Positions 23,343 through 62,487 of a stretch of 64,000 nt of DNA are shown piece by piece. The stretch is from positions 806,001 through 870,000 of the forward strand of contig NZ_JAHXGQ010000003.1 of NCBI RefSeq assembly GCF_019375475.1. The letters are read 5' to 3'. Position 1 is the first letter of the stretch, and the number at the start of each line of letters is the position of its first letter. The notes under the pieces were generated by a model. It saw only the letters and a list, made by a program, of their open reading frames with translations, was not told the DNA's origin and did no database searches. The translations under genes and the position numbers were made by a program. The DNA is from Saccharothrix obliqua. Its GTDB lineage: Bacteria; Actinomycetota; Actinomycetes; Mycobacteriales; Pseudonocardiaceae.

Positions 23343-23669
23343 ATGTCCCGTCGACCCCTCCGAGCCGCCGCCGTCGCACTCGTCACCGCGACCGCGATCC
23401 TGGCCGCTCCCGGTTCCGCGCTGGCCGTGACCGGCAGCTTCGTCGTGGACGGGAAAGTCGTGCTGCAAAATCCCGAGGACAAGAAGTGCCACAAGGTGAA
23501 GATCAAGAAGAAGCAGGTCATCACCAACATGACGTCGGGTCGCGCGCAGCTCTACAAGAAGCGCAGCCTGTTCGGCAAGTGCTCGGGGCTGTGGACGATC
23601 GTGCAGTCCGAGGCGCCGAACTTGCAGGCCGAGCACGATTTGCAGGGTGTGGTGTTCGTGTCGAACTGA
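23343..23669 (+). CDS. Small secreted protein of unknown function
   Basis: 108 aa, ATG after GGAAGGA. A clear Sec signal peptide (RRPLRAAAVALVTATAILAA, cleavage expected after A-L-A) leaves a mature protein of about 80 residues that is Lys-rich in its first half and has two Cys (in KKCHK and GKCSG), which may form one disulphide. I recognise no family. It is probably exported and basic. An upstream frame extension lacks a ribosome site. Confidence 0.7.
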   Translation: MSRRPLRAAAVALVTATAILAAPGSALAVTGSFVVDGKVVLQNPEDKKCHKVKIKKKQVITNMTSGRAQLYKKRSLFGKCSGLWTIVQSEAPNLQAEHDLQGVVFVSN

Positions 23670-23937
23670 CCTTCGCACCGCCGGGTGACCACGTCGGCTG
23701 CGCAGCGTGAGGTGGAGGTGGTGATCCGGGCCCGAACCACTCGTCGCGCCACCCGATGCGGGCATTCGGCGCGGCGTGCCTTGGGGGCGCGGGTGGTCGC
23801 GGTCGAGGATGGGCGCGCACCGATCCGGCTTCGGCGTGGGAGGGCCCGTGATCGCGACCCGCGCGGTCCGCTGTGGACGGTCCCACCACGCGGCAGGGGT
23901 CGCCCGGTCGGGCCAACCCACCAGCGCGGAGGCCGTC

Positions 23938-43887: not shown

Positions 43888-44754
43888 GTCATCCTCCTCG
43901 GTCGCCGCGGTTGACGCGCACCAGGTCCGTCCGAAGTGGACTCCGGCGGTGCGGGCGGTCGACCGGTGCGGAGTGGGCGACCCGGGACCAGTGTGCGACA
44001 AGCGGCGGATCGACCGCAGTACGGCAGACGAGTGACCTTCGTGGTGCCGGAAACCCGCATTCTGCGAGGTAGGAGTGAATATTCCACTACATGACCAAGT
44101 CTCGGTTACGGCCGCGCACCGGGGCCCGGCACCCGGGTCGTCCGTCCGAAGCGGACGGCGTGGTGGACCGGCTCCCGGTCGCGGTGTCGGACTGCCGAAG
44201 CGCCGGGTCTTCGGCACCGCACTTCGGATATCCGATCGCCGTGCCGCGGTGACCGGCCCCGCCGGCTGTCCGGACAGCGCACCGCGGGCACGTGATCACC
44301 GGGTGGCCGGTCGTCGGCACGGCGGACGCGTGACCGTCGGCCGTCCGCTCGTCGGCGCTCCGGGCACGGCGCGCGCCCGCCCCGCTCGGTGGCGGCGTGA
44401 CACCGCGGTGTGACACCCGACCGGTTCTCGTTCGTGCCCGCGACGTGGTCGACCGGCCGGGCGTTCCCGGCCCGCGGGTGGCCGGTCGCACGGGGTGCGC
44501 GCACCGGTGAACTCCACCGGCCTGGAATTCGACTGGCCGGACCCCCGATCTCCCGGGACGTGCGCCGGTCGCGCGAGCCCGGTGGCGCGCCCGCGCACCG
44601 TCGAACAATCGGTCGAACCGGCTCGGTACCGAAGTGCACGCAATCCGCGCAACTGCGGAAAAGGCCGCACAATGACTTGTGGGTGACGATGATCCGGTAA
44701 TACAGTCTTATGGCCGGGGGGAATCGCCCAACACAGGCGAATTCAGGGGAGACC
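43888..44754. other. 867-bp divergent spacer upstream of the pyrrole operon
   Basis: I see no convincing gene. A minus-strand frame around 44150-44300 has CPRC and YPKCGAE pairs like a zinc ribbon, but it has no ribosome site and a low-complexity remainder. An AT-rich imperfect palindrome, AGTGAATATTCCACT (44074-44088), is a candidate operator for the halogenase operon. TTGTGG (44677-44682) with TAATAC (44698-44703), 15 bp apart, is a possible promoter for the antiporter gene. Confidence 0.4.
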
Positions 44755-45939
44755 ATGGACGGCGATGGCGGCAGGCCGACGGCGTGGGCCCGGTCGGCGG
44801 GCCTGCTCATCGCGGTGGGCGCGGGTTGGTTGCTCGCCCGGTCGCTCGGCGTGCACGACATCTCCTCCTCGCCCGGCTACTTCTTCGCGATCAACGCGCT
44901 GCTCGGGTTCGGCCTCTACGCCAGCACCCGCGGCATCGACCTCGCCGAGTTCCGGGAGCACTGGGGCACCGTGCTCGCGGCCGTCACGCTGGGCGTCGGG
45001 CTGAAGGTGGCGTTGATCTTCGGCTTCCTCTACCTGTTCTACAGCCGCCCCGAACACCTGCTGCTCGCGGTGGCGGTGGCGCAGATCGACCCGCTGTCGG
45101 TGGCCGCGCTGCGCGCGGGTTCCCGCCTGTCGGAAGCGGGCAAGACGCTGCTGGCGGCGTGGTCCTCGTTCGACGACCCGATCACGGTCCTGCTGAGCGT
45201 GTACCTCACCGCGCTGGTGATCGGCGGCGACGCGCCGCTGTCCGGCGCGGGCCTCGGCACGTTCTCGCTGAACATCGGGCTGAACCTGGTGCTGGCCGGT
45301 GCGGCGTTCGCGGCGTGGCGCGTGCTGCGCCGCCGCGCACCGTCCGCCGCGGGGTGGCGCCGCGTCGTCGGCCGGGTGGTCGCGGTGGTGGCGGTGCTGG
45401 GTGTCGGCGCGCTGGCCGTGCGGTACTCGCTGCTGCCCGCGCTCGCGTTGATCGGGCTGTTCTTCCGGCCGGGCCGTGACGCGGACGTGGACCGGACGGC
45501 GCGGGGCGCGATGTACGCGGGCACGTTCGCGGTGGGCGCGGTCCTGGTCGACGGGGTGGACCCGACCACCGGCGCGCTGCTCGGCGTGGGCGCGTTCCTC
45601 GCGCAGGTGGTGGCGGCGGCGCTGCTGACCGCCCGCCCGCGCTGGCGCGGTGACCGCACCAGGCTGGCGCTGGGGCAGCAGAACGGCCTCACCGCGATCA
45701 TCCTGGCGCTGACGCTGCAACCGGTGCTGCCCGGCGCGGTCGCGGTGATCGCGCCGGCGGTCGTGGTCGTCAACCTGCTGCACGCGATCACCAACTCGCT
45801 GCACGACCGCTTCCGGCCGCCCGTCACGCGGCCGGACGTCCCCCGACCGCCGGTCGCGCCACCTGCCGCGCCACCGGCCCGCCGCGGCGGGCCGCCCGTG
45901 CCGAAAACGGTCGCGGTCGACCCGCTCGCCCGTCCCTGA
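44755..45939 (+). CDS. Cation/proton antiporter-like membrane protein (CPA family)
   Basis: 394 aa from ATG 44755, which has AGGGGAG four nt upstream; ATG 44710 would add 15 residues without a ribosome site. About eleven hydrophobic helices; the unwound-helix signature SSFDDPITVLLS has the Asp-Asp pair that carries Na+ and H+ in the NhaA/NhaP-type fold. The tail of about 40 residues is Pro-rich and basic. Probably pH or sodium homeostasis. It does not appear linked to the pyrrole operon, from which it diverges. Confidence 0.75.
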   Translation: MDGDGGRPTAWARSAGLLIAVGAGWLLARSLGVHDISSSPGYFFAINALLGFGLYASTRGIDLAEFREHWGTVLAAVTLGVGLKVALIFGFLYLFYSRPEHLLLAVAVAQIDPLSVAALRAGSRLSEAGKTLLAAWSSFDDPITVLLSVYLTALVIGGDAPLSGAGLGTFSLNIGLNLVLAGAAFAAWRVLRRRAPSAAGWRRVVGRVVAVVAVLGVGALAVRYSLLPALALIGLFFRPGRDADVDRTARGAMYAGTFAVGAVLVDGVDPTTGALLGVGAFLAQVVAAALLTARPRWRGDRTRLALGQQNGLTAIILALTLQPVLPGAVAVIAPAVVVVNLLHAITNSLHDRFRPPVTRPDVPRPPVAPPAAPPARRGGPPVPKTVAVDPLARP

Positions 45940-46208
45940 TCATGAATCGCCGCCGTTCTCCGCGAATCCGCACATCGGCGGTCCCGGTCGGGACGAATAC
46001 CGGCGGGTGAGATTCATTCCAGGCCGGGTGGAAATCCTGCGTCGCCGGGTTCCCGACCCGGCCACGACGGGTGACCGGCGGACATTCCGGTGTGGGCCGT
46101 CCCGGTGGCAACGGCCGGGCGTTCGGGGTACGCCGAGTAACCAATTTTACCCTCTTTGCGATTCTAAGACCGGTAGAGTCACAAGTCCGACACCGCAAGG
46201 GGGATGGG

Positions 46209-46925
46209 ATGCGGGGCTCGCGGGCAGCCATGGCCGCGTTGCTGTGGTGCGCCCTGGCCGTCCTGTCCCCGCCCGCGGCCCGAGCGGACACCGAGGACGA
46301 CGCGAAGGTGGTCCACTGCCTGTCGCCCACGCGGCGCGACGCACTCCGCCAGGCCGCCGAAGCCCTGGAGACCAGGCCCGAAGCCGACCTGGCGCAGTGG
46401 CGCAAGCACCGCCCCGACGACTTCGAGCGTGCCTGCGACGCCCTGTACACGGCGCAGAAGTCCGCCGACCCCGGCTGGTTCGCCAACCTCCTGCCCTTCC
46501 TCACCGGCCTGTTCAGCGCCGCCGCCGCGTTCGCCTTCACCACCTGGCAGAACCGCGTTTCCCGCGGCCGGGTCGTCGCGGACGCGCTGAGCACCGCGGT
46601 CACCGAGTTCCGCGAGGCGGCCGACGCCTACCTCCGGAGCTGGACGGCGGGGCGCTCGGACGCGGACGTGGTGGCCAAGCGGCACAAGCTGGTCGACCAG
46701 CTCGCGAAGCTCCGCTCGCAGCACCCCGCGTGGCAGGCGCCCGGCGACGCCATCACCCGGCTGACCGACGGCCCGCTGGGCGATGCGCTGAGCACCGGGT
46801 GGGGCCGGGAGCAGGCGGCGAACCGGAAGCGCCGCGAGGAGTGCGCGGCGGCGCTCATCGCCGTGCGGGACGACGTGTTCGCGATCGCCGCCGCGCTCAC
46901 CCGCCCGCTGCGGGGGCGCCGATGA
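46209..46925 (+). CDS. Membrane protein with signal-like N-terminus, first gene of ATPase operon
   Basis: 238 aa from ATG 46209 (AAGGGGG upstream). The N-terminus (MAALLWCALAVLSPPAARA) is a signal peptide. A second hydrophobic segment, ANLLPFLTGLFSAAAAFAFT, near residue 100 spans the membrane, followed by a charged helical, presumably cytosolic domain. I know no family. The stop overlaps the first ATPase start (ATGA), so it probably anchors or signals to the two NTPases encoded next. Confidence 0.7.
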   Translation: MRGSRAAMAALLWCALAVLSPPAARADTEDDAKVVHCLSPTRRDALRQAAEALETRPEADLAQWRKHRPDDFERACDALYTAQKSADPGWFANLLPFLTGLFSAAAAFAFTTWQNRVSRGRVVADALSTAVTEFREAADAYLRSWTAGRSDADVVAKRHKLVDQLAKLRSQHPAWQAPGDAITRLTDGPLGDALSTGWGREQAANRKRREECAAALIAVRDDVFAIAAALTRPLRGRR

Positions 46926-47857
46926 CGCTCGAACCCGTCAACCCCTTCGCGGTGCCCCACCTGCACGGCCCGGTGCAACCGCTGCGGCCGTTCGCGCACG
47001 ACCACGACGGCCTCTACGTGCGGGTGGACGACGGCGAGCAGCAGTACCTGAGCTTCCAGCGGCAGATGGGCGACCTGCGCGCGTTGCTGGAGATCGGCCG
47101 CACGGTGCTCGCCATCGGTGAATCGGGTTGCGGCAAGACGGCCCTGCTGCACCGCTGCGCCGCGTGGGTGATCGCCGAGCTGGGCGGGCGCGGCGTGACC
47201 GCGAAGGTGGTCGACGCGACCCGCCGGTTCCTGGTGGCCAGGGAGATGCCGTCGGCCGAGCGGCTCGTCGCCGTGTGCGACCACCTCTACGACCTGATGC
47301 GCCAGGACGGTCTGATCCGGCCGGACGCGGACGCGGAGTTCAAGGAGAACCGCCGGGAACCGTACCGGGTGTACCAGAACCTCGGCGGCTTCATGCCCGA
47401 CGACCACGTGCTGATCCTCCTGCTGCCCTCGCCGAAGGAGTTGTGGGAGGAAGTCGTGCAGTACGCGGGTTTCGCCCAGGGCAGGGTGCTCTTCCTGATG
47501 GAGTCGGACATGCTGGCCGATGAGGACGTCGCCCGCATCCGCCGCGACGTGGCGCACTTCACCGAGCCGGTCGTCCTGCAGGTGGGCCCGCTGGTGGCGG
47601 GCGACGTCGAGCGGTTCGTCACCGATCGGTTGGGACGTCGGGGGAACACCGCCCGCTTCCCGCGGCTGAGCGACGAGGCGATCGCCGCGGCGGGCCGGAA
47701 GTTCAAGACCGTTGCGCAGTTGCAGTTGGCGTTGCACAGCACCTACCAGTCCCGGATGGATCGGGCGACGGGATACGAGAACGACGCGTGGGTGACCGCC
47801 GAGGAGATCCTCGAGGACTCCGAGCGTCGCTCCGTCAAGGGATCGGGGACCTCATGA
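46922..47857 (+). CDS. P-loop ATPase of unknown function
   Basis: 311 aa. It begins with a short MTLEPVNPFAVPHL segment and has a Walker A, VLAIGESGCGKTALLHR, at about residues 64-80 and a candidate Walker B in HVLILLLPSPKE. The C-terminal 60 residues look like an AAA+ lid-type helical domain. Both its ends overlap neighbours (ATGA). The next protein also opens with an NPF segment, so the two NTPases may share an interaction site. No enzyme or defence family could be assigned. Confidence 0.75.
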   Translation: MTLEPVNPFAVPHLHGPVQPLRPFAHDHDGLYVRVDDGEQQYLSFQRQMGDLRALLEIGRTVLAIGESGCGKTALLHRCAAWVIAELGGRGVTAKVVDATRRFLVAREMPSAERLVAVCDHLYDLMRQDGLIRPDADAEFKENRREPYRVYQNLGGFMPDDHVLILLLPSPKELWEEVVQYAGFAQGRVLFLMESDMLADEDVARIRRDVAHFTEPVVLQVGPLVAGDVERFVTDRLGRRGNTARFPRLSDEAIAAAGRKFKTVAQLQLALHSTYQSRMDRATGYENDAWVTAEEILEDSERRSVKGSGTS

Positions 47858-50160
47858 GCGGCGGACGCGGCGACGGGACACCTTTGCGCAACCCGTTCTC
47901 CACCATGGCGGTCTCGCGCATCGTGGGCTTCGGCGAAGACCTCGGCACCACGGACGTCACGGTGGAGACCGACGCGATCCGCCGCGCCGTCACCTACCTC
48001 ACCGAGTACCTGGACGCGCCGCCCGCCGAGCGCGGTGGACCGGAGTCGGCGACGGTGATGCTGATCCTGGGCGAGCACGGCAGCGGCAAGTCGCACCTGG
48101 CGCGGCACCTCGTCCGGCTCGCCGGCGCGCGCCTGTCGGACGAGACCAGCTCGCTGCACATCGAGGCCACCGCGGACGACGTGCTGCACACCTACCAGCG
48201 GCTCCTGCTCCAGGTGGGTCTCGACCGGGTGCGCGCGCGGGTCAACGAGTTCTACGCGGACATCGTCGCCGAGCAGCTCCAGGACACCGGGCTGGCGAGC
48301 AACGCCGTGGAGCTGCTGCGCCGCCGCGAGATCGAGCCGCGCAGCGTCGTCCGGCAGCTGCAACTGATGGAGAGCCAACTGCTGCGGCGGGTGCACCGCA
48401 AGCTCCACGACGTCACCGCCGACGCGCGGTACGGCCAGGCGCTGTCGTTGTTGCTGCGCCCCGGTTTCGAGACCGCCGTCTGGAACTGGCTGACCGGTCT
48501 GGAGCCGGAGGGCATCCTCGTCGAGCGCGGTATCGCCACGCCCATCGCCACCGACACCGACGTGCTGGAGGCGATGGGCGTGCTGGCGCTGCTGTTCGGC
48601 GGCGAGCGGCGGCGGTTCCTGCTCGTGGTGGACGAGTTCGACAAGATCTTCTCGGCGGCCAGGGACGCCGACCGGCGGGTGGTGCCCGCGTTCCAGGAGA
48701 TGCTGGAGGTCTTCACCAGGGCCGGCGCGTGCCTGGTCCTGTGTGGTCACCCGGATTTCGTGGACATGCTCGACAGCAGCACGGTGGAGCGCGTCACGCA
48801 CACCGTGCGCATGGCCGGGTTGAGCGCCGCGCAGGTCGAGCAGTTCGTCCGGCTCGCGCAGGAGGCGGAGTTCGGCAGCCCGCGGCTGGAGCCGTTCTCG
48901 GTGGAGACCGCGGCGTACGTCGCGGCGCTGACCGGCGGCAACCCCCGCAAGGTCATCCGGATGTGCCACGCGCTCTACCGCATGGCGCACGAGAGCCCCG
49001 AGGGGCGCGTCACCGACGAGATGGTGCGGGAGACCGCGAGGGACCAGCTGGGGTCGCTGAGCACCGACGAGGTCGTCCAGGCCGCGCGCCGGGTGTTGCT
49101 GCACAACGGCTGGACCTACCAGCCGGACCACTACCTGGCGCTGGGCCGGGACTCCCGAGTGGACTTCTGGCTGACGTTCGAGGACCGCACGGGCGGCTGC
49201 GCCGTCGTCTTCACCGACTCGGTCCTGACCGAGCAGGACTTCACCGCCGTGCACCGCCGGACGGCGGCGGTGCGCAAGGCGGTCCCGGTCGCGGAGGTCG
49301 TCGTCGTGGTCAACGGCGTCGTCGCCGTCGAACCGGCCGCCCGGTTGCGCCAGGTGCTCGGCCGCGAACCGCTCGTCTACTCGGGCCGGGGTTTCGCCGA
49401 GGACTTCCGCGCCGCCGTCCGGGCCGCCGCGCGGCTGCTGCCCGGCGACCCCCGGCGCGACCCGATGGGTGGTGTGGGGCAGCGGATCGACCAGATCAAC
49501 CGGCAGCAGTCGAGCCTCTACGACTTCGTCGAGCAGCTGGCCGACCACCTCGACGTGATGCGGACGTCGTCGGACCGGCGGCTCGACGCGATCCAGCAGC
49601 ACCTGGCCGCGCTCGACACCGGGCCGGGACGCGTCGGCGCGCCGAGCGCCGATCCCGCCCTGCCACCGGAGGTCGCGCGGTTGTTCAGCGACGGGCTGGC
49701 GGCGTTGGAGGAGATCACCCAGACCGAGCTGATGGTGCGGGAGGCGTTCGACTCCGCCGCGCCCGACGTGCTGGAGGCGGCGCAACGCAGGCAGGGCTCC
49801 GCCGGTTACCTGGAGGCGGTCGGGATCGCGGCCCTGCTGCGGCAGGCGCTGCTGAGCTTCCGGGACACCGTGCTGCGGTGGTACCGGACCGAGCACGTGC
49901 CCCGGTTCGCGGAGGAGCTGCCGCCGAGCACGGCGGACAGCCTGGACGAGATCTGCCGGACCTACGACGCGGTGGTGGAGTACCTGCCGCTGCACCGGCT
50001 GGAACCGCTCGTCCAGCTCCCGCCGTGGAGTTCGCGTGGCGGCGTCGTCTCGGAGCTGACCCGGTCGACGCGCCGCGCGCGGCTGTGGCAGCGCTTGGAC
50101 AACCTCAGCCTGCACGTGCGCGACACCCTGGTCCGGGCCGCGTTGTCCGGGCAGGGCTGA
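47854..50160 (+). CDS. Large AAA+/ORC-like ATPase with C-terminal domain
   Basis: 768 aa. It starts SGGRGDGTPLRNPFSTMAVS. Walker A is LILGEHGSGKSHLARHL near residue 75. A Walker B-type LLVVDEFDKIFSAARD lies around residue 265, followed by a sensor-like VLCGHPDF and a lid with GGNPRKVIRMC. This is the order of Cdc6/ORC-like and conflict-system ATPases. Residues about 415-500 (NGWTYQPDHY, DSRVDFWLTFED, VVVVVNGVVAVE) have the strand pattern of a restriction-endonuclease-like fold but no E-x-K is seen. The remaining 250 residues are helical. It ends 3 bp from the stop of the converging Roadblock-like gene. Confidence 0.75.
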   Translation: MSGGRGDGTPLRNPFSTMAVSRIVGFGEDLGTTDVTVETDAIRRAVTYLTEYLDAPPAERGGPESATVMLILGEHGSGKSHLARHLVRLAGARLSDETSSLHIEATADDVLHTYQRLLLQVGLDRVRARVNEFYADIVAEQLQDTGLASNAVELLRRREIEPRSVVRQLQLMESQLLRRVHRKLHDVTADARYGQALSLLLRPGFETAVWNWLTGLEPEGILVERGIATPIATDTDVLEAMGVLALLFGGERRRFLLVVDEFDKIFSAARDADRRVVPAFQEMLEVFTRAGACLVLCGHPDFVDMLDSSTVERVTHTVRMAGLSAAQVEQFVRLAQEAEFGSPRLEPFSVETAAYVAALTGGNPRKVIRMCHALYRMAHESPEGRVTDEMVRETARDQLGSLSTDEVVQAARRVLLHNGWTYQPDHYLALGRDSRVDFWLTFEDRTGGCAVVFTDSVLTEQDFTAVHRRTAAVRKAVPVAEVVVVVNGVVAVEPAARLRQVLGREPLVYSGRGFAEDFRAAVRAAARLLPGDPRRDPMGGVGQRIDQINRQQSSLYDFVEQLADHLDVMRTSSDRRLDAIQQHLAALDTGPGRVGAPSADPALPPEVARLFSDGLAALEEITQTELMVREAFDSAAPDVLEAAQRRQGSAGYLEAVGIAALLRQALLSFRDTVLRWYRTEHVPRFAEELPPSTADSLDEICRTYDAVVEYLPLHRLEPLVQLPPWSSRGGVVSELTRSTRRARLWQRLDNLSLHVRDTLVRAALSGQG

Positions 50161-50163
50161 CGG

Positions 50164-51153
50164 TCAGCCGCGCACGACGGTGCTCGCCAACCGCGCCAAC
50201 GCCGTGTCGGCGTCGCGGACGCGGCTCTGGTCGATGGTGACGCCGACCAGGTAGGTGCCCACGTCCAGCCGGTAGTAGTAGATCGCGCCCTGCTCCACGT
50301 CGAGCACGAGCCGCCGCAGCAACCCGCCGGGCTCCGCGCCCGCGATCACGCGGTTGAGCCGCCGGGCGAGCCGGTCCAGCTCCCGGCCGAACACGCGGTA
50401 GAACGTCCGTCGCGTGTCGACCGCGATCTGCGTGAAGAACGGACCCAGCGACGGGTGTCCCAGGTGGTCCGCCTCCAGCACCAGGTCGCCTTCGGTGTAG
50501 TAGGCCAGGTACTGGAGGGCGTGCGGGCGGACGGTGGCCCGGAACGCGTGCGTCAGCTCGTCCGGCACGGCGTCGAACTCCTCGACGCGTGGTTGCTCGT
50601 CGTCGAGGATGGCCGCGGCGGGCGCCGTGCCCACCGACTCCCAGCCGCCGTGGTTGAGCGACGGCAGGCTGATCCGGTTGCGCAGCCTCGTGACGAGCGC
50701 CGACAGCGCCCGGTCCGCCGAGTTCACCGGCGCGACGTCGGTCAGCGGCGTGCCGGACGAGCCGGGCACGCCGCGGGTCACCGCGACGACGCACTCCCGG
50801 GGCACGACCGTGTCGCACAGCACGGCGCCGTGCTCGGTCTGGAGCACCGCCCGGATGAGCGGCCCGGTGCGCGGCTCCTGGAGCACGCGGTCGAGGTCCC
50901 CGGTGAGGTAGGCGAGCCGCCTGCCCAACTGCCGCAAGGCGTCCCGGCCGGCGAACCCCGTGCCGAGCAGGTCCGAGGAGAACGCGAACACTCCTTGGCT
51001 GAAGTAGGCGACGTAGGGCAGCGCGGGTTCGGCCGCGACCGCCTCGCCGCACGCCTGCCTGGCCTCGCCGAACCCGTTGCCGAGGAAGTCCGCCTGCTCC
51101 TCGTGCGGTGTCACCGGCGCGGTGGCCGCGTCAGGTTTGGGGGATGTCGACAT
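50164..51153 (-). CDS. Duplicated Roadblock/LC7-like protein next to FxsT
   Basis: 329 aa from ATG 51153 (GGAGGAG five nt upstream). The chain is an internal duplication: LPYVAYFSQG ... IRAVLQTEHGAVLCDTVVPRECVVAVT in the first half matches LQYLAYYTEG ... RRLVLDVEQGAIYYYRLDVGTYLVGVTI in the second. Strand-helix-strand patterns with a G-A-V/I turn are those of Roadblock/LC7 light chains, which partner small GTPases or ATPases. Its first 23 bases overlap the end of fxsT in another frame, so it belongs to that operon. The fold call is tentative. Confidence 0.55.
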   Translation of the reverse strand: MSTSPKPDAATAPVTPHEEQADFLGNGFGEARQACGEAVAAEPALPYVAYFSQGVFAFSSDLLGTGFAGRDALRQLGRRLAYLTGDLDRVLQEPRTGPLIRAVLQTEHGAVLCDTVVPRECVVAVTRGVPGSSGTPLTDVAPVNSADRALSALVTRLRNRISLPSLNHGGWESVGTAPAAAILDDEQPRVEEFDAVPDELTHAFRATVRPHALQYLAYYTEGDLVLEADHLGHPSLGPFFTQIAVDTRRTFYRVFGRELDRLARRLNRVIAGAEPGGLLRRLVLDVEQGAIYYYRLDVGTYLVGVTIDQSRVRDADTALARLASTVVRG

Positions 51154-54100
51154 CAATGCTCCTCCAGCCCTCGTCGCGGACGGCGCCGGGTTTGCGCACC
51201 ACCCGCAGGTCGTCCCGCGCGATCACCGTGCCCGGGTGCCCGTCGCCCAGGTACTCGCGGCAGTCCCGGTGCGCCCGCGCCAGCAGCGCCTCGGCGCCGG
51301 GCAGGTCGCCGCGGGCGGCGGTGGCGCGGGCGTGGGCCACCGCCGCCGCCAGCGTCCACGGGTGCGCCTCGCCCAGCTTCGCGTCCAGCGCGTCCAGTGC
51401 CCGGTGCACCTCGCCGGCGCCCTGCTCGACCCGGCCCGCCGCGCACCGGCTGAGCCCCAGGCAGAGGAGGGCCAGGGCGGTGAACGGGTGGTCGTCGGCC
51501 AGGCGCAGGTGTTCGCGGAGCCCGGCGAGCACCAGTTCGGACAGCTCCACCGCGGTGTCCGCCTCGCCCAGCGCACGGTGGTCCATGGCCAGGCTGAGTT
51601 GGCACGCCAGGGTTTCCGGGTGGTGCGGGCCCTGGACCTCCCGGAAACCACGCAGCGTGCCGCGGTCGCGCTCCTTGGCGGACCTGAGGTTGCCGCTGAG
51701 GCGTTCGGCGATGGCCAGGTGCCACTGGGCGGCCAGTTCGACGGGGCGGATGCCGGGGCCGAAGGCACGCAGCCGGTCGCGCGCGGTGCGCAGCGACGCC
51801 ATGGCCTCCGCGTACCGGCCCAGTTCCCGTTGGTACACGCCGATCCGCAGTCGCGACCACCACGTGTTCGGGTCGCGCGAGCCGAACAACCGCAGCCTGC
51901 GCTCGAAGTTGTCGGCCTCCACCTGGAGCGCGCCGGCGGGGTCGCCGGACAGGAACAGCGATTCCGCCAGGTTGTTCGCCGCGCTGCGGGTGTGCGGGTG
52001 GTCGTCGCCGAAGGTGTCGCGGAAACCCAGCCAGGTGACGCGGTCCTCGTCCAGGGCTTCGGCGAAGCGCCCCAGCCCGCGCAGGTCGCCGCCGAGCCCG
52101 CGCGCGGTGATCAACGCCTGCGGGCTGGTGAGTTCGGCCGTCCGCCGCTGCTGGAGCAGCGCGCTCTCGTCCAGCCGCATGGCGACGTCGGCCCTGCCCA
52201 GGCGGCGTTCCACGTTCGCGAGCTGCACGGCGAGGCGGGAGCGCAACGCGTCGTCCGCGCCGAAAACCGCCGTCCACGAGGTCACCAGCTCGTGCCCCGG
52301 TTCGGTGGAGGCGAAGTCGACGCCCGCGCCGCCGTCGGTGTAGAGGAACCGGAGCTGGTTCACCAACCAGCGGCGGACCACCTCGTCCCGGCTTTTCAGC
52401 GCACCGGAGGGGAACACGTGCTTCTGGAGTTCCCGGAACCGCCACGACCGGCTGCGCTTGCCGTCCGGCGACTCCTCGGCTTCCTCCGCCTCGGTGGGCG
52501 CGAACGCGGCGAGGGCGCGGAGCGCCTGGGCCTGCCGCTCGGCCCGGAGGTCGGGCCCCATGGCGTCGAGCAACGCCCGCTGCACGACGCGGTGCAGGCG
52601 CAGGCTGTTGCGCTCGCCCCAGTCCACGCGGAACAAACCGTGCCGTGCGCCGAGCCACAGCACGCGGTCGACCTCCCAGCTGTCCAGCCGAAGCGGTCCC
52701 GCGTCCACCCCGCCGACCTCGACCAGCGTCGAGACCACCGCGGTCGAGCGGACCAGCCGCAGGCCGACGCCCTGGGTGGACAGGAACGAGCACAGCTGCG
52801 CCAGCAGCACCGCGATGCGCCCGGCGGGATCGGCCGCCAGGGATTCCACCAGGACGGCGACCACCCGGGCGACCACGCCGCGGTCCGGCCGCGCCGCCTC
52901 GTCGAGCCGTTCCAGGAAGGCACGCACCGACCAGGCGACGGCGTCGGCCACGGGCGAGCCCGTGCGGCGCTCGCGGGTGACGGCCTCGGCGAGCCAGGAG
53001 ACGCTGAGTTCCAGGGCGAGCGGCAGGTGCTCCACCGCGCGCGCCACGCGCTCGGCGTCCTCGTCGCCCAGGCCGGGCACCCGCGCGACGAGGAGGCGGT
53101 TGCTGTCGCGCACCGGGAACTGGTCCAGTTCGAGGTCCGGTTCGGCGGTCGCGGAGGTGATCAGCACGTGACCGGGCCCGTGTGCCGGGACCAGGCCGTC
53201 GAGCACGTCGGTGTCGTCGGCGTTGTCGTAGACCAGCAACCACCGGCGGAACCGCTGCCCCGCGGCCAGTTCCGCCGGCGGCGACGGCGTCCCGTGCTCG
53301 GTCGCCGCGTGGTCGCCCAGGTCCGAAGCACGCATCCGGTCGCCGAGCTGGGAAAGCGCGATCAGCACGGCCTGCCGGTCGTGTGCCGGGACCCACCACA
53401 CCAGGTCGTAGTCCCCGGCGAACCGGTAGGCGTACTCCAGCGCCAGTTCGCTCTTGCCGACGCCGGGCACGCCGCCGATCGTGACGGCACCGCCCTGCTC
53501 CACCACCCGGTCGCGCAGCGCTTCCAGCGCCTCCTCCCGACCCACGAACCGCTGGTGACGTGCCGGCAGCAACTGCACGGCCGGTTCGGTCCCGGGCAGG
53601 CCGGGCCTGCCGTCCACCGCGTCGGGCGGTTCGATCAGCCCGAAGTGCTTGAGCAGCCGGGCCCGCGCACCGGGTTCGTCGGCACCGGCGACGTCGACCA
53701 CGGGTGCGACCGCGGCGGGTCCGAAGTCGCCGCTCTCCACCCGCAGCCGCACCGCGTCGGCGGAACGACCCGCCACCAGCCGGTTGAGCCGCGGTCCCAC
53801 CGGGGACGCGTCCAGCCGGGACGAGGAGATGATCAGCAGTTCCGCGTCGGGCGGCCACGACGCGTCGTCACGCAGCGGGGACGTCCGCGCGCCCGCGTGC
53901 TCCAGCGCTTCACGCGCCCAGTCCGCCCACGCCCGGTCGCGCGGGGCGTACGCCACGACGACGTGGTCCGGTTCGGTCGCCACCTCGATGCCGAAGACGC
54001 GTCGGTAGCGCGAGCGGATCCTCCGCTGCACGGGCGCCATGCGGGTGACGGAACCCCGGCTGACCGTCGCCGCGAGCTGTTCGTACGCCGCGCGCAGGCC

Positions 54101-54823
54101 CGTCGGGTCGTCCGGCTCCTCCACCACCACGGCCAGCAGGGGTTCGTACGTCTCGTAAGGGCGGTAGGGGATGCGGATCGAGGTGGCGTCGTCGTCACCG
54201 GCGTCCACGAGTTCGGCGAAGGCCACGCGGATCGAGGCGAGGCCGCGTTGCGCGCGCGGGCCGTCCTGGTCGTTGACCTTGGTGGCCAGCGGCACGATGG
54301 TGAGCGGGACGGACGCGTGCCGGCGCAGGTCGTCGGCCAGTTCGGCGGCGTCCCGGATCGCGCGTTGCCGCGGCACGAAGCAGATCACGGCGAAGTCGGC
54401 CACCTCGGCGATCGCGGCCGGTGCCGCGCCACCCCCGACCGGCGCCTCCAGCAGCACGAAGTCGTACTCGGCCGCGACGAGCCGGACCCGCGACTCGACG
54501 GCCTTCGCCGACGTGGCGCCGCCGCCCACCGCCGGTGGTTCGGTGAGGACGTCGGCGTACCCGGCGGAGCCGGGTGGTTCGTGCCGCCGCGCGGTGGCGG
54601 GTGGTTCGGCCGCACCGTCCGGGCGGGGCAGGGCGACCTCCCGCGTGGCGAAGGGTTCCAGGTACTCGGCGACCCGCGGCGCGCCCGAACCCAGGTCGAG
54701 GACCAGGACCCGCCGGTCCGCGCTCGCCAGCACCCACGCCAGGTTGGCGACCGCGCTGGTGCGCCCGGCGCCGTCCGACGCCGACAGGAAGGCGGCGGTG
54801 ACCGCTCGCCCTGAGCTGTTCAT
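51131..54823 (-). CDS. fxsT: FxsT-type regulator: MinD-like, TIR-like, NB-ARC, TPR
   Basis: 1,230 aa from ATG 54823 (GGAG five nt upstream). Residues 1-270 are MinD/ParA-like with a degenerate P-loop, SASDGAGRTSAVANL (Arg for Lys). Residues about 285-400 are TIR-like (VVVAYAPRDRAWADWAREAL). An NB-ARC NTPase follows, with VTIGGVPGVGKSELALEYAY near residue 450 and LLVYDNADD as Walker B. The last 450 residues are TPR repeats, many with histidine-rich G-D-x-H-P. This is the architecture of the tetratricopeptide protein of FxSxx-COOH systems, and the FxsA-like peptide gene lies directly upstream. It probably senses or transduces a signal; it is not known to modify the peptide. Confidence 0.85.
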   Translation of the reverse strand: MNSSGRAVTAAFLSASDGAGRTSAVANLAWVLASADRRVLVLDLGSGAPRVAEYLEPFATREVALPRPDGAAEPPATARRHEPPGSAGYADVLTEPPAVGGGATSAKAVESRVRLVAAEYDFVLLEAPVGGGAAPAAIAEVADFAVICFVPRQRAIRDAAELADDLRRHASVPLTIVPLATKVNDQDGPRAQRGLASIRVAFAELVDAGDDDATSIRIPYRPYETYEPLLAVVVEEPDDPTGLRAAYEQLAATVSRGSVTRMAPVQRRIRSRYRRVFGIEVATEPDHVVVAYAPRDRAWADWAREALEHAGARTSPLRDDASWPPDAELLIISSSRLDASPVGPRLNRLVAGRSADAVRLRVESGDFGPAAVAPVVDVAGADEPGARARLLKHFGLIEPPDAVDGRPGLPGTEPAVQLLPARHQRFVGREEALEALRDRVVEQGGAVTIGGVPGVGKSELALEYAYRFAGDYDLVWWVPAHDRQAVLIALSQLGDRMRASDLGDHAATEHGTPSPPAELAAGQRFRRWLLVYDNADDTDVLDGLVPAHGPGHVLITSATAEPDLELDQFPVRDSNRLLVARVPGLGDEDAERVARAVEHLPLALELSVSWLAEAVTRERRTGSPVADAVAWSVRAFLERLDEAARPDRGVVARVVAVLVESLAADPAGRIAVLLAQLCSFLSTQGVGLRLVRSTAVVSTLVEVGGVDAGPLRLDSWEVDRVLWLGARHGLFRVDWGERNSLRLHRVVQRALLDAMGPDLRAERQAQALRALAAFAPTEAEEAEESPDGKRSRSWRFRELQKHVFPSGALKSRDEVVRRWLVNQLRFLYTDGGAGVDFASTEPGHELVTSWTAVFGADDALRSRLAVQLANVERRLGRADVAMRLDESALLQQRRTAELTSPQALITARGLGGDLRGLGRFAEALDEDRVTWLGFRDTFGDDHPHTRSAANNLAESLFLSGDPAGALQVEADNFERRLRLFGSRDPNTWWSRLRIGVYQRELGRYAEAMASLRTARDRLRAFGPGIRPVELAAQWHLAIAERLSGNLRSAKERDRGTLRGFREVQGPHHPETLACQLSLAMDHRALGEADTAVELSELVLAGLREHLRLADDHPFTALALLCLGLSRCAAGRVEQGAGEVHRALDALDAKLGEAHPWTLAAAVAHARATAARGDLPGAEALLARAHRDCREYLGDGHPGTVIARDDLRVVRKPGAVRDEGWRSIDVDIPQT

Positions 54824-54923
54824 CACTTCTCCAGATCGCCGCGGGGCGGTGCGCAATTAGCGGTGTCCGCTCAATTGCGGGAAGGGCGGGGACAAATCAC
54901 TCGAATGGCGGCGCGTGGGCGCA

Positions 54924-55088
54924 CTACAACGAACTCTGGAACGCGGCGTATTGATCCGACGCCTGGCGCTCGGCCAGTATCCGGCGCAGTGAGGCACGCA
55001 GCGCGGGCGCGGCTACCTCGTCCAAGTCCTGCGGAGACAGGTCGGCCAGGTCGAGGAGTTCGGACTCCAGCACGCCGTCATCGGCCAT
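54924..55088 (-). CDS. fxsA: FxSxx-COOH peptide (FxsA)
   Basis: 54 aa, ATG with GGAGGAG a few bases upstream. It begins with an acidic, Leu-rich segment (MADDGVLESELLDLADLSPQ, then a DLDEV step) and ends in AAFQSSL-COOH: Phe-Gln-Ser-Ser-Leu fits the rule F-x-S-x-x-COOH that defines this family of putatively modified short peptides. FxsT lies 100 bp downstream on the same strand, and a HExxH enzyme starts 216 bp away on the other. In known systems a radical SAM protein (FxsB) acts on the peptide; none is visible in this window. Modification state and function are unknown. Confidence 0.88.
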   Translation of the reverse strand: MADDGVLESELLDLADLSPQDLDEVAAPALRASLRRILAERQASDQYAAFQSSL

Positions 55089-55303
55089 CTCTCCACTCCT
55101 CCGCGTGCGGCTGCGCTCGGCGGTCCCGGTGGAAACCGGCGACCGCACCGCGCGGTCCGGTGGTCGCGCCGAGTCGCCCGGGGTGCTCCGTGCGAGGCTA
55201 GCGGAAGAATGAGCGGGTATCCCGGCAAAATTCCGGGTTTTCCGTGAGATCATTTGTCGGGTCGGTCGCGCCGACTCGCCCGCGAACCGTCGTGGAGGCC
55301 GCC

Positions 55304-56443
55304 ATGACCCCCAGATCACGCATGTCCCGGGCGACCTTCTCCGCGTTGGCGGACGGCGGCGGTGGCGTCGCGGGGATGCGGTGCCTGGTGCGGGCGCGGC
55401 GCAGCCGGACGCTCCAACTGGTCCGGTACATCGCGGACCGGCGACCCGAAGCGCGTGAGGCGTTCGACGCGGTGAAGAGCCTGCCCGCCGCGGCGGTGCA
55501 CCGGGTGGTCGACCACCCGGCGGTGGGGGAGTGGGCCACGCGCACCGCGCTCGGGCGGGCGTCACCGGCCGGTCTGGCGTTCGTGGCGGCGGCTGCCGCC
55601 GTGCACGCGGGCACGTCGTTGTCGTTGGAGCTGCCGCCCGCGGACCGGCCGCGCCTGCCGACGCTCGGCGTGGTCAAGGGCAGGCCGTCCGGCAAGGTCT
55701 CGGTGGACGGGCTGGCGTGGGAGCCGACACCTCGCGTCGTCATGCGTGACGGCACGGTGTTCCTGGTGGAGAAGTGGGCGGTCGGCGGGCAGCCGGCGGA
55801 ACTCCGCGTGGCCGCCGGCGTGGACGTCGCCCGGTGGCAGGAGGTGGTGTCCGGCGCGTGGGAGCTGCTGTCCCGGGACCACGCGGACGTGGCGGCCGAG
55901 TTCGCCACCGCGGTCACCGTGCTGACACCGCTGGCCGAACCGCGCTCGGGCATGAGCAGCGCGACCCACGCCGACGCGTTCGGCTGCGTGTTCATGTCGT
56001 TGTCGGCGGACCCGGCGGTGGTCGCGATGACGTTGGCGCACGAGTTGCAGCACACCAAGTTGGTGGCGTTGATGGACCTGTTCCCCTTGGTGGTACCGGA
56101 TTCCGGCGAGCGGTTCTACGCGCCCTGGCGCGACGACCCGCGTCCGGCCATCGGCCTGCTGCACGGCGCGTACGCGCACCTGGGCGTGGCGGGCTTCTGC
56201 CGCCGCGCGGGCCGGGAGGTGGAGTTCGCCCGGTGGCGTGCGGCGTCCCTGCGCGCGGCGCGCACGCTGCTCGGCGGCGCGGTGCTGACCGCGTTGGGCC
56301 GGGAGTTCGTGACGGGCATGGCGGCCACGCTGTCCCGGTGGTGTGCCGAACCGGTGTCCCCGGCGGCGCAGACCCGGGCCGACCGCCTGGCGGCGGCACA
56401 CCGCGCCCGGTGGTCGGCGGCGGGTCACGGCGCGCCGGGGTGA
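55304..56443 (+). CDS. HExxH-motif peptide modification enzyme
   Basis: 379 aa from ATG 55304 (GGAGG five nt upstream). The metal site is His246-Glu247-x-x-His250 in LAHELQHTK, within a protein of the size and pattern of the mod_HExxH proteins found with FxSxx-COOH peptides. Related domains fused to radical SAM proteins have been reported as 2-oxoglutarate-dependent beta-hydroxylases, so iron and 2-oxoglutarate dependence is possible. Here it is free-standing and diverges from fxsA. It has no signal peptide and is not an ordinary secreted metalloprotease. Confidence 0.82.
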   Translation: MTPRSRMSRATFSALADGGGGVAGMRCLVRARRSRTLQLVRYIADRRPEAREAFDAVKSLPAAAVHRVVDHPAVGEWATRTALGRASPAGLAFVAAAAAVHAGTSLSLELPPADRPRLPTLGVVKGRPSGKVSVDGLAWEPTPRVVMRDGTVFLVEKWAVGGQPAELRVAAGVDVARWQEVVSGAWELLSRDHADVAAEFATAVTVLTPLAEPRSGMSSATHADAFGCVFMSLSADPAVVAMTLAHELQHTKLVALMDLFPLVVPDSGERFYAPWRDDPRPAIGLLHGAYAHLGVAGFCRRAGREVEFARWRAASLRAARTLLGGAVLTALGREFVTGMAATLSRWCAEPVSPAAQTRADRLAAAHRARWSAAGHGAPG

Positions 56444-59511: not shown

Positions 59512-62487
59512 ATGCGAGTCGAGTTCGGCCTGCTGGGTGAGGTCACCGCGCGCGTGGACGGCCGCGCCGTCGACCTCGGGCCCGCGCGGCAGCGGTGCGT
59601 GCTGGCGGCGCTGGCGGTCGACGTGGGCCGCGCGGTGCCCGCCGAGCGGCTGGTGGCCCGCGTCTGGGGGCCGGACACGCCCCGCCGCGGCACCGCCGCG
59701 CTGCACAGCTACATCTCCCGGTTGCGGCGCGTGCTGGCCGGCGCGGCGGGCGTCGTGCGGCGGTCCGGCGGCTACGCCCTGGTCGCCCACCAGTCGGGGC
59801 CGGTGGTGGACCTCGAGCGGTTCCGGGCGTTGCGTGCCCGTGGTGACGAGGTGGCCGCGTTGACCGAGGCGTTGGCGTTGTGGCGGGGCGAGCCGCTGAC
59901 CGGGCTGTCCGGCGAGTGGGCGGCGGCCGAGCGCGAGCGGCTGCGGCGGGAACGGCTCGCCGCCCAGCACGACCTGGTCGACGCGCGGCTGCGGGCGGGC
60001 GAGGGCGAGGGGCTGGTGGTGGAGCTGTCCGCCCGCGCCGCCGAGCACCCGCTGGACGAGCGCGTCGCCGGGCAGTACCTGCTCGCCCTGCACCGGGCGG
60101 GCCGGTCGGCGGACGCGCTGGAGCAGTACCGCCGGGTGCGCGACCGGCTGGCGGACGAGCTGGGCGCCGATCCCGGCAGGCCGCTGCGCGAGCTGCATCG
60201 GCGTATCCTGGCCGACGACCCGGCCCTCACCCCGCCGCCCGGCGACGGGCAGCCCGCGCCCGCCGCGCTCGCCGGGCGGCCCGCCGCGCCCGGCGATCGG
60301 CAGTCCGAAGCACCCGGCGAAGGACCCGGCGACCCGCGGCCCGAGCCCGAGGCGCTCGCTGACCAGCGCTCCGCGTCGGGGGAGGCTCCTGGCGCGCTTC
60401 CCGCGTCCGCGCGGGAGTCCGGCGACGCGCTGCCCGCGTCGCAGGCACCCGGCGACCGGCGGCCCGTGCCCAGGCAGCTGCCCGCCGAACCACCGCACTT
60501 CACCGGTCGCGTGGCCGAACTCGCCGTGCTGCACGACCACCTGGCCGCCGCCGGACCGGGCCGGGCGGTGGTGATCTCGGCGATCGCCGGCTCGGGCGGG
60601 ATCGGCAAGACCTGGCTCGCGTTGCACTTCGCGCACCGCCACGCCGACCGGTTCCCGGACGGCCAGCTCTTCGTGGACCTGCGCGGGTTCAGCCCCGAGG
60701 GCAGGCCGATGGAACCGGCGGTCGCGGTGCGGGGTTTCCTCGACGCGCTCGGCGTGGACCCGGGTCGGCTGCCCGTCGACCCGCACGCCCAGGCCGCGTT
60801 GTTCCGCAGCCTGGTCGCCGACCGGCGGATGCTGGTCGTGCTCGACAACGCCGCCGACACCGCGCAGGTCGCACCGCTGCTGCCCGGCGGCCGGTCGTGC
60901 GCCGTGCTGGTGACCAGCCGCACCCGCCTGCCCGGCCTGGTCACCGGCCACGGCGCACACCACGTGCCGCTCGACGTGCTCTCCGCGCGGGAGGCCCACG
61001 CGTTGCTGACCGCACGCCTCGGCGTCACGCGGGTCGCGGCCGAACCGGCGGCGGTCGGCGAACTCGTCGCGCTGTGCGGTGGTTTCCCGCTGGCGCTGAG
61101 CATCGTCGCGGGCCAGGCCCACACCCGACCCGACCGGTCGCTGGCGGACCTCGCCACCGAGCTGCGCGACCTCGGCCTGGCCGCGCTGGCGGACGACGAC
61201 CCCGCCGCCAGCCTGCCCGCCGTGCTGTCCTGGTCCCGGCGCACCCTCGCGCCGTCCCGGCTGACGGCCTTCGCGTTGCTCGGCACCGCGCCCGGACCCG
61301 ACACCGGCCTGCCCGCCGCCGCGAGCCTGCTCGGCCTGCCCGTCCCGCAGGCCAGGGCCGTGCTCCGGGACCTGGAGCGGACGTCGTTGGTCGTCCAGGA
61401 CGCCGCGGGCCGGTACCGGATGCACGACCTGATCCGCTGCTACGCCTTCGACACGGCGGAAGAGCACGCGCCCGAACCGGACCGCGCGGCGGCGTTGCGC
61501 AGAGTGGTCGACTACTACGCGTACACCGCCCACGCCGCCGAACGCCGCCTGAACCCCACCCGCCAACCCATCGACCTCGTGCCGCCCGCGGCCGGCATCC
61601 AGCAGCACCCGGTGCCCGACGACCCGACCGCCCTCGCGTGGTTCGACGCCGAGCGCGCCAACCTCCGCGCCGCCCAGCGCACCGCCGCCACCCACAACTG
61701 GCACGACCCGGTCTGGTACCTGGCGTGGACCACCACCACGTTCCACGACCGCCGCGGCCACCGCGACGAGCAGATCGCCATGTGGGAGGCCGCATTGCGC
61801 GCGTCCGCACACCTGCCCGGCCTCGTGGGCCTGCGCGTGCACGAACTGCTCGGGCGCACCTACGCCGGCGCGGGCAGGCACGACGACGCGATCGAACACC
61901 TGCACAAGGCCCTCACGCTGGCCGAGCGGCACGACGACCCCAGTCAGCAGGCCCATGCGCACTACACGCTCGCCTGGACGTGGGAACTGCACGGCGACGA
62001 CCGCAAAGCCCTCGACCACGCCACCCGTGCGCTGGACCAGTACCGCGACCTCGACCACGCGGTGTGGGCGGCGGACGCGCTCAGCCGTGTCGGCTGGTAC
62101 ACCGCCCGCCTGGGCGAGCACGGCACCGCGCGCACCCAGTGCGAGACCGCCCTGGCCCAGCACCGCCGGCACCGCAACACCGTCGGCGAGGCGGACACCC
62201 TGGACAGCCTCGGCTACATCGCCCACCACACCGGCCACCACGAGGAGTCCGTGCGGCGCTACCAGGAGGCCATCGCCCTGTACCGGCGTCTCAGCAACCA
62301 CTACGACCTCGCCACCACGCTCGAATACCTGGGCCACCCGTACGCCGCCCTCGGCCGGCACGAGGAGGCGCGGGACGCGTGGCGGGAGGCGTTGGAGCTG
62401 TACCGGGATCAGGCGCGCACGCCGGACGCGGAACGCGTCCAAGCCCGCCTCGCACCGCGACCCACGTCGACCGGTCGAAACCTTTGA
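59512..62487 (+). CDS. SARP-type regulator with NB-ARC and TPR domains (AfsR-like)
   Basis: 991 aa, ATG after a G-rich ribosome site. Residues 1-95 are an OmpR-like winged helix (MRVEFGLLGEVTARVDGRAV, ALHSYISRLRRVL); about 96-240 is the bacterial activator domain. A Pro/Ala-rich linker of some 80 residues follows. The NB-ARC starts near residue 330, with ISAIAGSGGIGKTWLALHFA around 357 and MLVVLDNA as Walker B. The last third is TPR repeats. Such proteins activate antibiotic clusters in response to signals. The linker is longer and richer in charged repeats (APGDRQS, APGDRRP) than usual. No pathway gene adjoins, so its targets may be the halopyrrole or RiPP loci or lie elsewhere. Confidence 0.88.
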   Translation: MRVEFGLLGEVTARVDGRAVDLGPARQRCVLAALAVDVGRAVPAERLVARVWGPDTPRRGTAALHSYISRLRRVLAGAAGVVRRSGGYALVAHQSGPVVDLERFRALRARGDEVAALTEALALWRGEPLTGLSGEWAAAERERLRRERLAAQHDLVDARLRAGEGEGLVVELSARAAEHPLDERVAGQYLLALHRAGRSADALEQYRRVRDRLADELGADPGRPLRELHRRILADDPALTPPPGDGQPAPAALAGRPAAPGDRQSEAPGEGPGDPRPEPEALADQRSASGEAPGALPASARESGDALPASQAPGDRRPVPRQLPAEPPHFTGRVAELAVLHDHLAAAGPGRAVVISAIAGSGGIGKTWLALHFAHRHADRFPDGQLFVDLRGFSPEGRPMEPAVAVRGFLDALGVDPGRLPVDPHAQAALFRSLVADRRMLVVLDNAADTAQVAPLLPGGRSCAVLVTSRTRLPGLVTGHGAHHVPLDVLSAREAHALLTARLGVTRVAAEPAAVGELVALCGGFPLALSIVAGQAHTRPDRSLADLATELRDLGLAALADDDPAASLPAVLSWSRRTLAPSRLTAFALLGTAPGPDTGLPAAASLLGLPVPQARAVLRDLERTSLVVQDAAGRYRMHDLIRCYAFDTAEEHAPEPDRAAALRRVVDYYAYTAHAAERRLNPTRQPIDLVPPAAGIQQHPVPDDPTALAWFDAERANLRAAQRTAATHNWHDPVWYLAWTTTTFHDRRGHRDEQIAMWEAALRASAHLPGLVGLRVHELLGRTYAGAGRHDDAIEHLHKALTLAERHDDPSQQAHAHYTLAWTWELHGDDRKALDHATRALDQYRDLDHAVWAADALSRVGWYTARLGEHGTARTQCETALAQHRRHRNTVGEADTLDSLGYIAHHTGHHEESVRRYQEAIALYRRLSNHYDLATTLEYLGHPYAALGRHEEARDAWREALELYRDQARTPDAERVQARLAPRPTSTGRNL

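Follow-up and report, generated by a model that had tools for sequence, protein, structure and literature searches.

A conserved FxSxx-COOH cassette without FxsB in Saccharothrix obliqua, a diverged paralogue of a complete locus in the same genome

The FxSxx-COOH system is said to go back to a founding paper by Haft and Basu in 2011. Here we analysed a locus of this system in a 64,000-nucleotide stretch of Saccharothrix obliqua DNA (contig NZ_JAHXGQ010000003.1, positions 806,001 to 870,000; hereafter the window). The locus encodes a precursor peptide (FxsA), an FxsT-type protein and a protein with an HExxH motif, and lacks the radical S-adenosylmethionine (SAM) enzyme FxsB. A complete FxsA-FxsB-HExxH-FxsT locus lies on another contig of the same genome; the window locus is its diverged paralogue, minus FxsB, and is conserved in two further species of the genus. 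With a probability of roughly 0.68 we regard it as a stable satellite cassette, the peptide of which would receive its cross-link from the genome's only FxsB, acting in trans, and would then be hydroxylated by the cassette's own HExxH protein and read by its own FxsT. The core of the locus consists of the following elements.

54924..55088 (minus strand): FxsA precursor peptide of 54 amino acids (aa), C-terminus DQYAAFQSSL-COOH; TIGR04268, 37.7 bits (cut-off 28)
55304..56443 (plus strand): homologue of the alpha-ketoglutarate-dependent (aKG) HExxH-type peptide beta-hydroxylases; TIGR04267, 159 bits (cut-off 40), motif HELQH kept
51131..54823 (minus strand): FxsT, 1230 aa, with a putative MinD-like N-terminus, an NB-ARC-type ATPase and TPR; NF040586, 656 bits (cut-off 300)
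55089..55303 (unstranded): divergent intergenic region of 215 bp between FxsA and the HExxH gene, the position of FxsB in canonical loci

The original prediction, made from the letters alone, had named a 54-aa peptide ending in FQSSL next to an HExxH modification protein, and both identifications stand. The FxsA match (E 1.7e-9) is too strong to be a chance one. The HExxH reading frame is open from 55244, and the ATG at 55304, which lies behind a GGAGG, is the probable real start; its residues H246, E247 and H250 are unvarying in an alignment of six proteins. The assignment to FxsT likewise holds at the level of the family and for TPR_12, which scored over its Pfam cut-off, while AAA_16 stayed below (28.8 bits, cut-off 32.6). 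The MinD and TIR labels given to the same protein fared less well. For the MinD-like part there are only matches under the cut-offs (NF047398 25.9 bits, cut-off 90; CbiA E 0.003) and, over residues 11-180, a weak structure model with blocks of about 50-70 in the predicted local distance difference test (pLDDT). The TIR label is weak, with TIR_2 below its cut-off at E 0.013 and a pLDDT <50 in that region. The AlphaFold models were built from three-row alignments and are poor, with a mean pLDDT of 46.2 for the FxsT N-terminus.

The absence of a recognisable radical SAM enzyme from the window was confirmed. The genome's own FxsB gave a best tblastn match of E 0.97 and 26.9 bits in the window (limit E<=10), and among window open reading frames (ORFs) of >=150 aa the single CxxxCxxC is found close to the end, at residue 790, in a frame of 808 aa (23521-25947, minus strand) that has no Pfam match at E<=0.1. 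The contig carrying the window (C23) gave no match at E<=0.001 in a whole-genome FxsB search. No FxsB remnant was seen in the 215-bp gap, where the best tblastn match had E 0.18 over 20 residues, and a remnant was rejected on that ground. An assembly gap as cause of the missing gene was rejected as well, since the corresponding FxsB-less loci of two relatives (G110 and G212) lie in single-contig assemblies.

The original prediction had further raised maturation of the peptide by the HExxH protein in place of FxsB. This part is not supported, and a finding that the prediction itself had named as its refutation was made: a TIGR04269 search of the whole genome (G000) yielded four matches, one of which, at G000:C2:163835-164905, is a bona fide FxsB over the cut-off (422 bits, cut-off 370). 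It lies on a contig other than that of the window, and its neighbours are another FxsA of the same family (tail FESSL), another HExxH protein and another FxsT. Five proteins, namely an ATPase, a protein of 330 aa, FxsT, FxsA and the HExxH protein, correspond between the two loci at 46-53% identity and in equal order and orientation, and FxsB is the sole member of the shared core that is absent from the window locus. Common to both regions is also a second small ATPase gene (41% identity), while the genes at 44710-45939 and 46071-46925 have no match in the genome's joined canonical region.

The peptide has retained the target motif, with Phe and Ser at positions i and i+2. Its last ten residues, DQYAAFQSSL, are identical in the window and in the two relatives (loci L014 and L020), although the codons hold synonymous changes. 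The FxsA of a further genome from another genus (G089) has the same ending, and there FxsB is adjacent. Since the peptide kept its exact target site and the enzyme was lost, the satellite most likely borrows FxsB from the complete copy. FxsB presumably belongs to the family of the triceptide maturase MscB (IPR026335). Text excerpted from PMC11002830 describes for MscB a link from C4 of Phe to C-beta of Ser between residues i and i+2; the window peptide keeps this spacing, but no such enzyme is encoded at its locus.

In the proposed pathway, the FQS motif of the satellite FxsA would receive its Phe-to-Ser (i, i+2) cyclophane in trans from the FxsB encoded at the complete locus, the satellite HExxH enzyme would next hydroxylate the cross-linked peptide, and the satellite FxsT may then sense or use the hydroxylated product. 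One FxsB serving two precursors would be the simplest account. The suggested order, cyclophane before hydroxylation, follows ChlH, the nearest precedent in biochemistry that we found, an aKG-HExxH beta-hydroxylase that, according to excerpts of PMC12636437, acts on a peptide in which the cyclophane is already installed. Our HExxH profile matched ChlH (8s5f) with E 5.5e-8 over profile positions 244-351; the window protein stands alone, and its detectable likeness to ChlH is limited to the region around HExxH. It is a putative aKG hydroxylase at this locus, and FxsT is the putative reader of the peptide.

The arrangement is real and conserved. Among 25 genomes of the genus, FxsB was found in 19 and canonical FxsA in the same 19, while the FxsB-less cassette occurs in three (G000, G110 and G212), each of which additionally carries a canonical FxsA-FxsB locus. 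Comparison with relatives, which the original prediction had suggested, revealed the same FxsB-less arrangement in G110 and G212. A profile was built from the three HExxH proteins; it gave 755-765 bits for these and <=436 bits elsewhere in 390 genomes of the family, a gap that, given how the profile was made, marks no more than a distinct clade. A tree of four concatenated proteins was computed for the 46 of 61 loci that have all four, by a quick method and with long branches flagged. In it the three FxsB-less loci of the genus group together (Shimodaira-Hasegawa-like approximate likelihood ratio test, SH-aLRT, 100) and adjoin L022, an FxsB-bearing locus of another genus, while the canonical cassettes of their own genus fall elsewhere. 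A FxsB match accompanies 42 of the 46 loci; the four without are the genus trio and L065. By parsimony on this tree, FxsB was lost once on the stem of the trio clade, before the three copies diverged. The cassette may be an old paralogue or may have come by transfer.

The conserved cassette is longer than first noted and reaches to about 44710. Beyond the core it comprises the following genes, where occurrence is given over the 61 loci with the window counted.

50164..51156 (minus strand): P0003, cassette protein of 330 aa without known family, at 48/61 loci
47854..50160 (plus strand): P0005, AAA/NACHT-like ATPase of the cassette, Pfam AAA_22 over cut-off (E 1.9e-8), at 46/61 loci; the frame is open from 47788 and the start at 47854 is the likely one
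46922..47857 (plus strand): gene for a second, small ATPase-like protein, with a visible P-loop and only weak AAA matches, at 42/61 loci
46071..46925 (plus strand): accessory gene with a signal-peptide-like N-terminus (by eye), probable start further in, near 46209, at 9/61 loci
44710..45939 (plus strand): hydrophobic, probably multi-pass membrane protein of 409 aa, with 69% identity in G212, at 38/61 loci

P0003 had no match in Pfam, NCBIfam or PADLOC at the limits used. Its model, of very low confidence (mean pLDDT 34.7), has a repeated helix-strand-strand-helix-strand-strand-strand-helix order, which we take to be a pattern that would suit two roadblock/LC7-like domains. The membrane-type protein at 44710-45939 had no Pfam match, and the PADLOC search returned weak matches only. 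On the HExxH side, the neighbouring genes went unmatched across roughly 30 kb in both G110 and G212, with one weak exception, the protein at 59512-62487, matched in G212 with 34% identity over 650 residues. This regulator-like protein (plus strand; BTAD, NB-ARC and TPR according to Pfam) is encoded a few kb from the cassette. The absence of FxsC, also part of the original prediction, was found again, with no match in G000 or in 12 other genomes of the same family (0/13). A search of 24 genomes gave an FxsC match in 9, over the cut-off in 8 of these. Because the 13 family genomes include ones with complete FxsB loci, its absence is not diagnostic in this lineage, and we rejected FxsC loss as an informative feature.

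The relation between the FxSxx tail and FxsB was then surveyed in three partly overlapping sets of 200 family, 25 genus and 394 class genomes, with 33, 150 and 17 FxsA candidates scored per genome, respectively. FxsB was searched in the genomes with an FxsA hit and in all genomes of the genus. After merging of repeats there were 134 FxsA hits, 110 of which extend to profile position 40 or beyond and so reach the tail. For 103 of these, FxsB lies within 10 kb, for 7 it is elsewhere in the genome, and none (0/110) is from a genome without FxsB. The 24 hits that stop short of the tail divide into 5 near FxsB, 6 with FxsB elsewhere and 13 in FxsB-less genomes; the difference between 0/110 and 13/24 has a Fisher p of 6e-12 if hits are taken as independent, which they are not. 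Tails were read for the seven exceptions and not for all 103 FxsB-near hits. Five of the seven are FxSxx (G000, G110, G212, G687 and G540); G180 and G734 were rejected as exceptions because their tails, GWQSC and FSNEG, are not, and the G734 hit lies <1 kb from the end of its contig.

The locus of G687, a genome of another family, is a second, independent FxsB-less case in an FxsB-bearing genome. It has an FxsA (tail GFQSAI), an HExxH protein and an NB-ARC/TPR-type protein; neither an FxsB match nor, among ORFs of >=150 aa, a CxxxCxxC was seen in its 20 kb, while both FxsBs of this genome are on contigs other than that of the FxSxx locus. Between FxsA and HExxH, at L062 9956-14302, a SIR2-like gene (by eye) and another large frame were seen. 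The G540 peptide (AAFNSSV, 29.6 bits), although counted among the five tail-bearing cases without FxsB at the locus, is a weak one: the cassette proteins were unmatched in its 20 kb, and this apparent orphan FxsA (L063, near 9940-10080) is surrounded by genes that look recombinase- and FtsK-like by eye.

Several points weigh against borrowing of FxsB. The action of FxsB on the satellite peptide is something we infer, and conservation of the tail might instead reflect its recognition by FxsT or the HExxH protein. The two FxsA leaders of the genome agree in LESELLD and diverge thereafter, and the satellite tail QYAAFQSSL differs from the RFAAFESSL of the FxsA adjoining the FxsB. Co-occurrence within the genus is uninformative, since with FxsB in 19 of 25 genomes three out of three would be expected by chance with a probability of 0.42. 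For the FxsB-less loci alone, the link between tail and FxsB has a p of 0.04, or 0.08 with the genus trio taken as one. Moreover, the FxsA counts are lower bounds because only part of the candidates (17-150 per genome) was scored. On the other side stands the observation that the genome has one FxsB over the cut-off and that this enzyme sits beside another FxsA, HExxH protein and FxsT.

The strongest competing explanation, which we nevertheless consider unlikely, is that the HExxH protein alone matures the peptide. A linear FxSxx tail would then be hydroxylated and read by the cassette's own FxsT as a cyclophane-free signal, sharing the cell with the cross-linked signal of the canonical locus. 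The original prediction had offered the HExxH protein as possibly the only local modifier, and so far as the locus is concerned this was upheld: it is the sole modifier found there, with an intact motif, in an arrangement present in 3 of 25 genus genomes. New transformations have also been reported, in the excerpted text of PMC12636437, for PflC and PosC, aKG-dependent HEXXH enzymes from other clusters for ribosomally synthesized and post-translationally modified peptides (RiPPs). Furthermore, HExxH loci with other peptide tails occur in genomes lacking FxsB. An example is L065 in G736, which combines an HExxH protein and a peptide without the FxSxx tail with distantly related counterparts of FxsT, of the 330-aa protein and of the ATPase; a search of this genome at E 1e-50 gave no FxsB match. 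We count this cassette in favour of borrowing as well, and it may be seen as a natural control. Maturation by the HExxH protein alone is nevertheless unsupported: no tail-reaching hit came from an FxsB-less genome, the 13 hits that did stop short of the tail, and the two of these that were read (G141 and G736) do not end in FxSxx. In addition, hydroxylation by ChlH needs the preinstalled cyclophane, according to the same excerpts.

It is considerably less probable that the satellite is a decaying or regulatory copy, with a peptide that remains unmatured and competes for FxsB or FxsT, or a cassette on its way out. FxsB was lost, and compared with the canonical cassettes of these three species the satellites show faster evolution of FxsT, of the 330-aa protein and of the ATPase, with a ratio of nonsynonymous to synonymous change (pN/pS) for FxsT of 0.48-0.64 versus 0.27-0.39. 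Yet no stop or frame break was seen in the five satellite genes, and their pN/pS is <1 in all three pairs. FxsA has the lowest values of the five (0.24-0.33; the others 0.38-0.79), and those of the HExxH gene (0.38-0.47) are near its canonical copies (0.33-0.42). Recent pseudogenisation was rejected in view of the intact HExxH motif, the pN/pS <1 and the trio clade in the tree. Least credible is a zincin protease that would free a C-terminal peptide from FxsA by cleavage, an activity that Kaur and colleagues (eLife 2020; PMC7159879, section 24) ascribe to systems of this kind and that is compatible with the HExxH motif as such, because the solved chains matched by the profile are 22nu (named radical SAM core domain-containing) and ChlH 8s5f, because the excerpted PMC12636437 assigns the ChlH type to aKG-dependent hydroxylases contrary to an earlier metallopeptidase annotation, and because NCBIfam names the family aKG-HExxH peptide beta-hydroxylase.

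The satellite cassette is best seen as a variant of the FxSxx-COOH system (TIGR04268, TIGR04269, TIGR04267 and NF040586), in which FxsA, the HExxH protein and FxsT all score over their cut-offs but the site of FxsB is reduced to a gap. In the section drawn on here, Kaur et al. (eLife 2020, PMC7159879) describe the same combination of a peptide, a zincin-like protein and an AP-ATPase/TPR protein with a MinD-like domain, and propose that these peptides act as toxins or signals. They tie the FxSxx tail to an added radical SAM gene; in the present genome the tail is there, but the gene lies at a different locus. FxsB-less FxSxx loci were not found described in the literature searched, which does not prove their absence in print.

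In the genomes surveyed, the FxSxx precursor is nearly always encoded near its own FxsB (103 of the 110 tail-reaching hits, within 10 kb), and the local absence of a gene should not be taken as a sign of new chemistry. A satellite with precursor, hydroxylase and sensor and without a cyclophane enzyme suggests that one enzyme may serve two peptide-sensor pairs. Such a cassette would offer a natural test of whether hydroxylation by the HExxH protein and sensing by FxsT need the cyclophane.
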